Origin: Terebella lapidaria
Taxonomy: Eukaryota; Annelida; Polychaeta; Terebellida; Terebellidae
Direction: 5' to 3'
Length of the DNA stretch: 64,000 nt
Assembly: GCA_949152475.1 (NCBI GenBank)
Contig: OX424558.1
Coordinates: forward strand, 40,354,751 to 40,418,750
The number at the start of each line of letters is the position of its first letter. Position 1 is the stretch's first letter. Position numbers and translations under genes: made by a program. The notes beneath the pieces are model-generated. The model searched no databases and was not told the origin of the DNA. It was given only the letters and a program-made list of their open reading frames with translations. Of this stretch, positions 22,361 through 62,841 are shown one piece after another.

Positions 22361-25300
22361 CTGTAAAACATGGATTAGTGATTGAACAGCGATAAGTTAT
22401 TTGTGATATAATCTACTTAAAATATGTATTTATCAAGGTTTCGATGTCATCACACAGATTCGTCAAAAAATATATATATAAGTGTACACATGTTGTCCTG
22501 CATTGGAGATTATTTGTACAGAGTCTGACCTGTCGTGAACAAGGACCGTGTCTGACCTGTCGAAGCTGTCCGTCGATACAGATCTCTGTCCAGGTGTCGA
22601 TCCGATGTGGCAGCGAACCTCCTTGGACGTCGTGAAAGCACTGCGGTTGTTCCGCTCCGGTTTGCAGATGATGATGTAAATCTTAGGGAAGAACAACAGA
22701 ATGAGAGCCACTGAGGCACTCAACGTTATGGCGAGACACATCGTGATGACTTTGCTGTCACTGCCGAAATAGATCGGCACAAACGCCAACCAAATGATAC
22801 AAGTCGTGTACATAGTGAATCCGATAAACTTTGCCTCGTTGAAGTTTTCCGGCAGGTTCCTTGTCTTTATAGCATAAAGCGTGCACATGACGATGAGAAA
22901 GATGTCAAAGCCGAGTGGAGCAATGATACCCATAGTTGTAGCGTTACAGGTGAGTGCCACGCGTCTCTTGGCGGGGTATACAAGCTTGGAGTCCGCCGGC
23001 TCCAGAATCAACATTAGCGTGATGATGGCACACTCCACTGAGATAATAACACACGTGATCAGCACCTGAGCTGAGGCGCTCATGAAGCGCGGTTTGCGAG
23101 TCATAATCTTCTTCTTGCTGCCTGCCAGGATGCGCGCGATGCGGTTGGTTTTGGTGAGCAGTGCGCCGTAGATCATGGAGAAGGAGGAGCCAGGCAATAT
23201 CCTGGTCAAGTAGCAGGTGAAGAGGGACGGCTTAGCCACAAGGATGAAGGTAGTCAGATAGGAGACACAGATCCCGAACAGGATGATGTAGCTGAGCTCA
23301 CGTGTGGACGCCTTGACGACGGCCGTGTTGTTATGGCGCATGAAGACGACACTGACCCACGAAACCGCCAGGATCCCGACACACGCGAACGTCATCGACA
23401 CAATTGCTTCTTTGTCGTGCCACTGCATCGTCTCGAGCGGCACCAGCACACAAGCTGCAACAGACGGACACACAGTCAACTAAGGTAAACCCAGACATCC
23501 AAGTCATGTTTGTTGAGCACAGCTGTGGACACTAGAGAGAGATACTTGCCTGTCAGGTCGCCATTGGGCCACCAGCCCATGGGACAAGACTTGCAGGTCT
23601 GCTCGTCCAGCAGGAACTGGTTGTCCTGACAAGGTGTACACGACCAGCAGCAATGTACTTGGTTCTGGATCACCTGCCGAGAGCACGAACTCGTCACTTA
23701 GCAAACCACGATGGTGAAACTCTGGTCTTGTGCTAGTATCAATAGCTGCTCAAGTCAGCAGGTCACCCAGCTGTTAGGACGGTACATGTACCTTGATTTC
23801 GCCACGAGGACACGGTTTGCTACAGACGCTCTCTATGATGGGACCGCCGGACTGGATCTGACTGGGCCACTGGACCCGAGCCTTGTTCACCGTCAGGTTA
23901 CCGTTGTCCCAGCCCCCAATCCGCACATAACCGTAACTTCGGCTACCATTCTCAGACTCCACAACTTGAAAATTCATGATGTCGTATCTGAAGTAGACAT
24001 GTTCACCAGAGAACAAAACGATGAGAAAATAAACTCGTCAAACGTCACACCTAGTTGATCTTGCACCAAGCTCAGACCAGCACCAGCACCAGAACTATCA
24101 TTTTTATGTTCACTACTTTACCATACTATTACATTTACATACATATGATATTTTATAGTGCTGTACAATCAACCTATTTGCCAGGCGGGTCATCGATGAT
24201 AAGTGTGACCTAGCTCAGACCAGCACCACACCTACCTGCCGGGCGGGTCGCCATTGCGGTTAAAGTGGAGCAGGTCGTTGCTGTATGAAGTGAAGGACAC
24301 GTTGAGGAGGTACTCCAGGAATGTTGCCCCGTCGACTGGATCCATCTCTGGACAAAGTCCTGGTCGTCCGCTACACACGTCCTGGTGCATTCTATGCAGT
24401 GCGTTCGCCATCGTGTAGATCGCATTGACGACGAACCCCAGCTTGGCGTCTTGCACGTACTCGGCTTTTGAGAGATCCTCCTGACCTGGAACAGGAAACA
24501 CAGCTTTACTACTTGTACAATAAACATTCCAATTGCTATGATACCTAGCTTGAACCAAGATGTTTGTATGACAGTGTTCTAATGTCATAGTGTCATAATG
24601 TCCGAGTGTCTTTGTATTTCAGTGTCCGGGTGTCTTATTTGCATGGTGTCATAATGTCATAATGTCATAATGTATGTCAGTGTCTGAGCGTGTGAGGGCC
24701 ATGGTTTCATTTATCATGGTTCGTAGTGACAGAGTGTCATTCGCATGGTGTCTTGGTGTATATGATACATGCAAACGGGGTCATGTCCATACTGTATGTG
24801 CGAGTTCATGTTCCATGCGGCATGAAAATGGGGTCATCAAAATCTTGTGGTGCGAACTTAATCAATTCGAGAAACAATGATTTTGAACACTTGCATGCGT
24901 TATATATTTTTTGGCCAGATCAATATGTGTTTATATTGTTAGATGGCACTGGCGTGGTTCTGTGATGTTCCCGGTCTGCTAAGACAACAATACAATATTT
25001 ACAGATGCCTCTTGGATAAGCACATAGATATTGTGACATCATTCATCATTAAAGGCTCATTGCCCTGAACTTTAGAAGCGGTGTCTAAAGTGTACTCCAG
25101 CTTCGACCACGTCTGATTTTATGAAAACTATCAACTGGAATCAATGGTCTCGACTTGGACAAAATAATCCATTAAAATCACAGGATTAAATGGACATCTG
25201 TACCGCTTCCCTGCCATGATTAACCTATTCAAGGCAGCAAATTAACAACACAGAGGGTAGAAAAACTGCACAGAATCTTTGGTTGTTGTCTGGAGCAAGA

Positions 25301-28300
25301 TAATTCAAACCACTTCAGGGTGATGGGCACGGTCCATTAGAAAGAACTGCAGATGTTCAATAACCTTGCTCAAACCCTCCCCAGTGTGTCTCATACACAG
25401 CGGAAATCTGAAGCCATACAGTCCGATTACCAGTACACAATAACGATATACGAGCGAGATGTATACACTTTTATAGTCTCTGACTCATTATTCGGGGGTG
25501 TTGTGGCCGAGGTAAGCCGTCCCTCGAACATATATCTGCTGGTTGGGGTCGGGGGAGACAGGAAGCTGTTTTTGGCACACCTCGCCCCGCTGCCACCACA
25601 ACTCCTAACGGCCCGGGGTCCGAGTCCCCAGACTCAGCACACAACAACATTCTAGCTAGACTAAATATCACAAAACATCAATACATTTCTAAAGCTTCGC
25701 TTGAACAGTAAACCACTGACTTGCGGTATATGCCGTATACAAAGTGTGCACCCAAGGCAGATAGAAAGGACTTCGTCTGTAGAACAACGACGGCTGGCTT
25801 CCTAGACTTTGGTCGAGTCAGGAAAACTGTAACTCGGGCCACGCGACCATGTATTCATAAATCAATTACTTGTTCATTCGCACATCGCATCCTTGACATA
25901 CGAGCACATGAGCGAGGAGACAAACTTGTGCCCGGCACGCCACGAGCCTCCCTTCAGGCTGATGTAGTTAACCCTGAGAGCCGGGCCGGGTAATGCCGTT
26001 AACCCGCGTGCTGCGGGAGAACAAACTGGTGGAGAATCCGACTCTCAGTCCAGCTCTCTCTCTCGCTCACACACATCAGCCACGGAGAAAAAATACCCGC
26101 GTCAAATCGCCTGTCAAAATCAGTAGCGGACGGTGCAGAGTTTGATGTATTGGGGTGAAATGTGTTCTGGTCCTTCTTTGTCATTCCCACTACATGCTGA
26201 TAATGCTGTCAACGAATTGGGGTTGTTATTGTGTGGACATTACACACAAATTACCTGGAACAGCTACGTGTAAATCTGATACCGAATTCGCTGACATCAA
26301 ATTGCTCTGTACCAACTGAATAATCATCTGCCTCGGCTGAGTGATTTTTGAAACGATGTATGGTTTATTGCTCTGAACCATCATCTGCCTGGGCCGAGTG
26401 ATTGTTAAAGCAGCACGACTGTTTATGTATGGTTTGGTTCTCTGAATCATCATCTGCCTGGGCCGAGTGATTGTTAAAGCAGCACGACTGTTTATGTATG
26501 GTTTGGTTCTCTGAACCATCATTTGCCTGGGCCGAGTGATTGTTAAAGCAGCACGACTGTTTATGTATGGTTTGGTTCTCTGAACCATCATCTGCCTGGG
26601 CCGAGTGATTGTTAAAGCAACACGACTGTTTATGTATGGTTTAGTTCTCTGAATCATCATCTGCCTGGGCCGAGTGATTGTCGAAGCAGCACGACTGTTT
26701 ATGTATGGTTTGGTTCTCTGAACCATCATCTGCCTGGACCGAGTGATTGTTTAAGCAGCACGACTGTTTATGTATGGTTTGATTCTCTGAATCATCATCT
26801 GCCTGGGCCGAGTGATTGTTGAAGCAGCACGGCTGCGTATGCATGTTATGTATGGTTTAGTTCTCTGAATTATCATATGACTGGGTTGAGTGATTGTTAA
26901 AGCATCACAGCTGCTTAAGTATGGTTTAGTATGCCGGGTTGTCGAGTGCCATAAAGTTCGAGATCACGATTTTGTAATTCGAGATCACGACTTTGTAACC
27001 TAATATACTTCCTTTCGTCCTGTTCTAGATATCTATACATAGGAAGGATTACTAAAAGTGCGTTTACATTATAAAAAAAGTAAACATGTATTGGTTTTTG
27101 ATATAAATATCGTGCCTGTAAATTCAGAAACAATGATATACAATGGTGTGTGTACTACGTAACATTGACATCATAAAACTTAGCTCAATGTACGTATCCG
27201 TCTTTCGTGTAAAGTAGTTTATTTATTCAAATGTGCTCCTATCCTATAAAGGTGTGTTTTGCCATACACTTGGCGATAAACTCGATCACGGTTTTCTGTC
27301 GGAGTGGTCAGGTTTGTCTGGCCTTACCAGTACATGGTGTGCTGTGGGAGTGGTCAGGTTTGTCTGGGCTTACCAGTCCATGGTGTGCTGCAGGAATGGT
27401 CAGGTTTGTCTGGGCTTACCAGTCCATGGTGTGCTGTCGGAATGGTCAGGTTTGTCTGGGCTTACCAGTCCATGGTGTGCTGTCGGAGTGGTCAGGTTTG
27501 TCTGGCCTTACCAGTCCATGGTGTGCTGTAGGAGTGGTCAGTTTGTCTGGGCTTACCAGTCCATGGTGTGTTGTCGGAGTGGTCAGGTTTGTCTGGGCTT
27601 ACCAGTCCATGGTGTGCTGTCGGAGTGGTCAGGTTTGTCTGGCCTTACCAGTCCATGGTGTGCTGTAGGAGTGGTCAGGTTTGTCTGGGCTTACCAGTCC
27701 ATGGTGTGCTGTCGGAGTGGTCAGGTTTGTCTGGCCTTACCAGTACATGGTGTGCTGTCGGAGTGGTCAGGTTTGTCTGGGCTTACCAGTCCATGGTGTG
27801 CTGTCGGAGTGGTCAGGTTTGTCTGGGCTTACCAGTCCATGGTGTGCTGTCGGAGTGGTCAGGTTTGTCTGGGCTCACCAGTCCATGGTGTGCTGTCGGA
27901 ATGGTCAGGTTTGCCTGGCCTTACCAGTCCATGGTGTGCTGTCGGAGTGGTCAGGTTTGTCTGGCCTTACCAGTCCATGGTGTGCTGTCGGAGTGGTCAG
28001 GTTTGTCTGGGCTTACCAGTCCATGGTGTGCTGTCGGAATGGTCAGGTTTGTCTGGGCTTATCAGTCCATGGTGTGCTGTCGGAATGGTCAGGTTTGTCT
28101 GGGCTTACCAGTCCATGGTGTGCTGTCGGAATGGTCAGGTTTGTCTGGGCTTATCAGTCCATGGTGTGCTGTCGGAGTGGTCAGGTTTGTCTGGGCTCAC
28201 CAGTCCATGGTGTGCTGTCGGAGTGGTCAGATTTGTCTGGCCTTACCAGTCCATGGTGTGCTGTCGGAGTGGTCAGGTTTGTCTGGGCTTACCAGTCCAT

Positions 28301-62600: not shown

Positions 62601-62841
62601 GTTTGTTGTGTTCCAGCACTGCGTCTCCCTGTGCCATGAAGTCCCGACGTCCCCTGGTCCCTTGTGGTCTGGGTCTGTTCCTGGCCGTGGCCGTCTCTTG
62701 TATATGTTTGTTGTGTTCCAGCACTGTATCTCCCTGTGCCAAGAAGTCCCGACGTCTCCTGTCCCTCGTGGTCTGGGTCTGTTCCTGGCCGTCTCTTGTA
62801 TATGTTTGTTGTGTTCCAGCACTGTATCTCCCTGTGCCATG
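62599..62841 (+). repeat. three tandem copies of the galactosyltransferase acceptor/start region
   Basis: Each copy reads TTTGTTGTGTTCCAG/CACTG, then TCTCCCTGTGCC, a start-codon position and AAGTCCCGACGTC. Spacings are 105 and 98 bp (exon starts 62617, 62722, 62820). The start codon is ATG in copies 1 and 3 and AAG in copy 2. Confidence 0.92.

Follow-up and report, generated by a model that had tools for sequence, protein, structure and literature searches.

Candidate mirage minisatellites at splice junctions of a spiralian metabotropic glutamate receptor gene

Minisatellites that span the border between an exon and an intron, known as mirages, have been described in amphioxus, in the Adh3 gene and the globin genes BflGb6 and BflGb9 (PMC3087553) and in troponin C and PGBD5 (PMC3902484). 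According to these reports, the arrays span acceptor or donor borders and many of their copies retain the AG or GT (PMC3087553, PMC3902484); splicing is said to go on undisturbed, as suggested by reverse transcription PCR and by Adh3 data, and mirages are treated as perhaps general in cephalochordates and as a way in which new introns could arise (PMC3087553). Here we describe a 64,000-nt stretch of the 762-Mb genome of the annelid Terebella lapidaria (C4:40354751-40418750; hereafter, the window), in which tandem arrays lie over both borders of exon 3 of a gene for a group-I-like metabotropic glutamate receptor and over a predicted acceptor of a beta-1,4-galactosyltransferase gene (Table 1). 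Judged by their structure, the arrays appear to be mirages, a known structural kind, in a lineage other than that of amphioxus.

The acceptor unit of exon 3 measures 43 bp, consisting of 31 nt of intron joined to the 12 nt with which the exon begins, and is present in 14 copies including the real junction; AG is found in 12 of these, and in 11 of the 13 intronic copies. The donor unit measures 46 bp, half of it exon (23 nt) and half intron (23 nt). Its 31 copies, again counting the real one, carry GT in 28 cases and AT in three, the AT copies being scattered at different positions of the array, so that GT is kept in 27 of the 30 intronic copies. At both borders, the structural features of a mirage were found: the boundary lies inside the unit, the AG or GT is kept, and the unit is of minisatellite size. 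An earlier note on this DNA had held that the copies at the exon 3 borders keep the splice signals, as the counts confirm, and had likened them to amphioxus mirages, a likeness that agrees with the description in PMC3087553.

Table 1. Coordinates of junction arrays, look-alikes and receptor exons (window positions).
Feature	Position	Strand	Basis
Exon 3 donor array, 46-bp unit, 31 copies, first copy the real junction (exon end 28706)	27296..28723	-	
Exon 3 acceptor array, 12 of the 14 copies, last copy the real junction (exon start 28938)	28927..29434	-	
Two outlying exon 3 acceptor copies beyond the inserted element	30744..30830	-	
Element inserted in the acceptor array, inverted ends like TAGCTTACCGGCC, internal 134-bp tandem repeat	29454..30742	.	
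Galactosyltransferase predicted acceptor and exon start, ~98 bp x 3; real start codon at 62839	62594..62894	+	
Exon 2 acceptor (31172) and upstream look-alikes of GTAATTAC at 31268, 31282, 31316 and 31343	31165..31345	-	
Exon 4 donor (24236) and single decayed look-alike 58 nt downstream	24170..24245	-	
Exon 7 donor (22557); another donor, in frame, at 22530 (27 nt downstream)	22520..22570	-	
Group-I-like metabotropic glutamate receptor gene	21019..44186	-	spliced open frame, homologues, tree, junction alignments, 7tm_3 match
Receptor coding exons 1-4	44186-43562, 31172-30926, 28938-28706, 24485-24236	-	
Receptor coding exons 5-8	23987-23792, 23673-23550, 23454-22557, 22360-21019	-	

The donor copies are 95% alike, and the 30 intronic ones differ from one another at a mean of 2.2 of 42 bases. 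Compared with the exon copy, they show 11.4 differences of 42, although a one-base gap inflates this value, and the exonic half of the unit shares 17 of 23 bases with the true end of exon 3. Since the copies are nearly identical to each other yet diverged from the exon copy, the array probably goes back to one old founding duplication that diverged and was amplified recently. The acceptor array is split by an inserted element, and the presence of copies on either side of this element fits an array that predates the insertion. Elsewhere in the window, two arrays (46258-46969 and 48364-50305) have 39/78-bp units that look related by eye, and between them lies a stretch with a 133/134-bp tandem repeat (47002-47909) of the kind found in the acceptor-array element, and elements with such a repeat may repeatedly enter tandem arrays.

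A genome search with two tandem donor units returned at least 18 matches, all in the exon 3 donor array, and a search with two acceptor units returned at least seven, all at the exon 3 locus. The units of exon 3 and of the galactosyltransferase gene likewise had no match outside the window in 280 kb of other loci. A dispersed satellite that had landed on a junction is not supported for either exon 3 unit, the matches being confined to their own locus. Since the units match only that locus, the exon 3 arrays would seem to have been made in place from the junctions themselves. When the units of 17 window arrays were compared with exons and their flanks in a search for hidden mirages, none new was found; four of the 17 scored above shuffled units, each of them from an array that extends into the stretch with which it was compared.

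The sizes of the present units (43, 46 and ~98 bp) overlap those given for amphioxus, namely 10-72 bp in Adh3 and 150-160 bp in the globins (PMC3087553) and 60 and 108 bp in PGBD5 (PMC3902484). Copy number reaches 31 here, as against six and three in the two BflGb6 haplotypes (PMC3087553) and 2-7 in PGBD5 assemblies (PMC3902484). Unlike the amphioxus mirages, the present ones include a pair of arrays on the two edges of one exon, and their host is a spiralian placed beside Capitella in the receptor tree, not a cephalochordate. Tandem genomic duplication has reportedly served as a route of intron gain (PMC4974935), and Zhuo (2007) is said to have derived human introns from tandem arrays. The arrays described here resemble such cases in that the duplicated segment includes splice signals; they differ in that no new intron has arisen, the copies staying within existing introns while the exons join as in homologues. 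Within annelids, an earthworm metallothionein gene contains intronic minisatellites, with arrays in intron 1 (PMC12783039), and thus provides another annelid intron with big minisatellite arrays, although the available part of that report describes no splice junction within them. We found no report of boundary-spanning arrays outside cephalochordates in the open-licence literature. If mirages occur in a spiralian, this would agree with the view that rapid minisatellite turnover, in whatever lineage, gives rise to them.

The galactosyltransferase gene lies on the plus strand, with its first coding exon near 62819 and its end ~600 nt past the window. Its array comprises the predicted acceptor, 20 nt of 5' untranslated region (UTR) and the first part of the coding exon, and copy 2 has lost the ATG. 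The acceptor, which is predicted only, would be a 5'-UTR junction before the start codon, and the array would be a mirage if this junction is real. To score single junctions, we used S, an ungapped local-copy score for copies within 200 nt of the junction. Four further junctions of this gene just beyond the window scored S 4-8, the exon 3 donor among the gene's junctions having S=5. A 20-bp x 8 array (63757-63918) begins 17 nt into the intron after the exon 4 donor of the same gene, with the junction outside the array; a unit similar to it occurs, inverted, ~5.6 kb farther on.

The receptor gene lies wholly inside the window, where its eight coding exons give a spliced open frame of 1304 aa. 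GT-AG ends occur in six of its seven introns; the intron behind exon 6 is of the GC-AG type, with the GC donor at 23548-23550. At five of the seven joins, alignments with homologues continue across with at most a small gap nearby; the exon 3/4 and 7/8 joins fall in variable stretches of these alignments. Among the best 120 of 2615 relatives are sequences from Capitella, Lineus, Lingula, Owenia and molluscs, and those that bear names are chiefly mGluR1 or mGluR5. The genome search gave a 7tm_3 match at exon 7 (E 2.9e-62), and the product is a class C G-protein-coupled receptor with group I relatives. In a tree of 29 receptors, whose deuterostome side consists of hemichordates and vertebrates with no amphioxus row, the window sequence falls within Spiralia (support 100/100), next to Capitella (93/92), and separate from the deuterostome and ecdysozoan rows, a position that contradicts an amphioxus host. 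The C-terminal 13 residues of the receptor are near-identical in Capitella and other sequences, though the tail is variable (21019-22360, minus strand). Much of intron 1 is occupied by two further arrays (35420-39213 and 39638-42763; 36 bp x 107 and long runs of 48 bp) that leave the junctions untouched. A GC donor was also seen in the dynein gene model of the control sample described below (fragment L025, 6108).

The redundancy of sites at exon 3 creates 434 possible acceptor-donor pairs (14 x 31). Only two of these leave the frame open, i.e., the real exon and a version extended by 45 nt (15 aa), the latter arising because the first decoy donor is spaced by 45 and not 46 nt and is hence in frame. 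Routine use of most copies would therefore ruin the protein. Predicted U1 pairing is best at the real exon 3 donor (-9.1 kcal/mol), compared with -8.5, -8.1, -8.0 and -1.4 kcal/mol within the array. We infer that splicing normally relies on the copy attached to the exon and treats the remaining copies as intron, in which case the duplication would be almost invisible to selection. At exon 7, splicing at the second donor would lengthen the protein by 9 aa without a frame shift. Since the 233-nt exon 3 has to be recognised among 13 acceptor copies in one intron, 11 of them with AG, and 30 donor copies in the other, 27 of them with GT, the locus provides a natural test of splice-site choice.

The earlier note had listed five junctions with tandem copies and a sixth, the exon 4 donor, with decayed ones. 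The exon 3 acceptor, the exon 3 donor and the galactosyltransferase junction, as a predicted UTR acceptor, stand; the exon 2 acceptor (S=19) and exon 7 donor (S=14) score weakly, as does the exon 4 donor (S=14). Such scores occur at rates of 0.014, 0.037 and 0.037 for exon 2, exon 4 and exon 7, respectively, over 46,560 non-array positions of the window; for positions that resemble acceptors or donors, the rates are 0.015, 0.042 and 0.042. In the window alone, S>=14 is attained by three of the 18 junctions that lie outside arrays (P 0.037). Pooled with 93 control junctions, the weak junctions amount to 3/111 at S>=14 against 4.6 expected, and with 148 controls to 3/166 against 6.9, with no excess in either case. 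When copies are counted out to 1,000 nt, approximately one third of all window positions match the scores of the weak junctions, so that plain coverage at junctions is not elevated. A reading of the three as decayed mirages is thus indistinguishable from the pooled background, and this applies equally to the decayed copies claimed for the exon 4 donor. The look-alikes at these three junctions may nevertheless be real old copies.

The earlier note had judged the placement of arrays on junctions to be far beyond chance. We compared the window with a control sample from the same genome. This sample consisted of 25 fragments of 10 kb, ten of which form one contiguous 100-kb stretch, plus two that flank the dynein gene. 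Gene models were built with an exon-chaining script using splice weights from general knowledge, and genes with recognisable homology were kept, namely the dynein gene DYNC2H1, an LDL-receptor-repeat receptor, an alpha/beta hydrolase, an SMP-30 protein, a WW-domain MAGI-like gene and a tetraspanin-like gene, the last identified by eye. In the dynein model, 73 chained segments were reduced to 47 exons by dropping scores <10 and a retroelement stretch and by merging one split exon. These six genes yielded 148 control junctions (94 + 54), whose borders were partly confirmed against the human protein in the dynein model and are predicted only in several of the others. None of the 148 had a copy with S>=14 within 200 nt and none lay inside a repeat array, which indicates that mirages are not general at this genome's junctions and cautions against deducing a border-targeting mechanism from a single striking locus. 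Tandem repeats make up 27% of the window and 20% of the 250 kb sampled elsewhere, and the array density of sample and window together predicts 0.0212 crossings per junction. On this basis, 3.58 of the pooled junctions should lie in arrays, and 3/169 do (P 0.69). Arrays placed anywhere in the window would likewise cross 2.12 junctions, compared with three seen (P 0.36). Finally, sample and window together gave 87 repeat units of 20-200 bp, and these were not richer in strong splice motifs than single-copy DNA or than the units after shuffling.

Several results weigh against a purely coincidental origin. When exons are spared, which is fairer than placing arrays anywhere, three of 31 arrays cross junctions against 0.14-0.42 expected (P 0.0005-0.0075); the two strictest coding-overlap settings, 25 and 50 nt, would exclude the galactosyltransferase array itself, and 76 nt gives P 0.0057. 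Weighting by local array density leaves 0.63 expected versus three over 114 junctions, 93 of them controls (P 0.026). Three of 21 window junctions lie in arrays against none of the 148 controls (Fisher 0.0017), and the difference persists without the galactosyltransferase junction (2/20 versus 0/148, Fisher 0.014). In addition, one 233-nt exon bears independent arrays at both edges, and weak donor motifs are slightly enriched in repeat units, a score >=6 being reached by 0.30 of them, compared with 0.21 and 0.23 in the two controls. The control junctions come mainly from repeat-poor fragments (only three of the first 93 are in a repeat-rich one), and are thus a poor test of repeat-rich genes. 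On the other hand, the window was chosen owing to this very feature, so that its P values are optimistic. The counts give an excess when exons are spared, a mild one under local weighting and none when junctions are pooled or arrays are placed anywhere; the claim of placement far beyond chance thus varies with the expectation chosen and is poorly sustained. A local excess of junction arrays is possible; a border-targeting process is not demonstrated by these counts.

Considering both sets of results, we think it likely that the arrays are mirage-type minisatellites in a minisatellite-rich spiralian genome, tolerated by-products for which no junction-directed process is needed. A short tandem duplication would by chance span a splice junction, after which the exon-attached copy would still splice and the extra copy on the intron side would be removed with the intron, unseen by selection, while duplications within exons would be purged. 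The intronic copies would then diverge and later expand by slippage or unequal exchange, like other minisatellites, and junction arrays would be the small fraction to be expected where arrays are born often throughout the genome. In this scheme we infer that the arrays are neutral, that the copy next to the exon is the one used and that slippage or unequal exchange brought about the expansion. A junction-directed process, e.g., repair at transcription-linked R-loops or breaks near exon edges, might instead duplicate borders in some genes or regions, as the earlier note supposed. Such a process would explain why the window count exceeds the exon-sparing expectation and the locally weighted one, why arrayed junctions occur in the window and not in the control genes, and why the same exon is hit at both edges. 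However, none of the junctions in six other genes is affected, the pooled total equals the expectation at average density, the four galactosyltransferase junctions past the window score low, strong splice motifs are not enriched in repeat units, and the window was selected for the feature. We therefore consider a directed process unlikely, and the controls and repeat units do not bear out the earlier proposal.

Alternatively, selection could keep the arrays, with the 27 donors and 11 acceptors serving as decoys whose copy number tunes the accuracy of exon 3 splicing. The retention of GT and AG in most intronic copies is in keeping with this idea, as are the U1 pairing of decoy donors, which is near that of the real donor, and the in-frame position of both the first decoy donor (45 nt) and the second exon 7 donor (27 nt). 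Yet recent amplification alone would yield the same retention of signals, given the likeness of the donor copies, and the three broken AT donors stand at differing places in the array; decoys maintained by selection are thus very unlikely in our judgement. A bolder version, in which junction-targeted duplication recurs in this lineage, convergent with amphioxus, and decoy arrays provide copy-number-dependent control of splicing, strikes us as highly improbable. Tandem arrays are susceptible to assembly error, and the galactosyltransferase junction is an unverified 5'-UTR site, both of which would favor artefacts of assembly or of gene models. Against this, the receptor junctions are backed by homology and by the open 1304-aa frame, and the arrays contain diverged copies and an insertion, all within a single 48-Mb contig, so that we attach the least credence to artefacts. 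The arrays remain, in our assessment, probably tolerated minisatellites.

Other features were seen in passing. Tandem repeats make up 60% of the 10 kb with which contig C1 begins, including a long array close to the end of the contig (fragment L001, 4557-9999). The minus strand of the window holds an open frame with an HLH domain (8234-8983), achaete-scute-like by eye, as well as reverse-transcriptase-like and other retroelement-like open frames recognised by eye (15533-16797 and 51297-52492).

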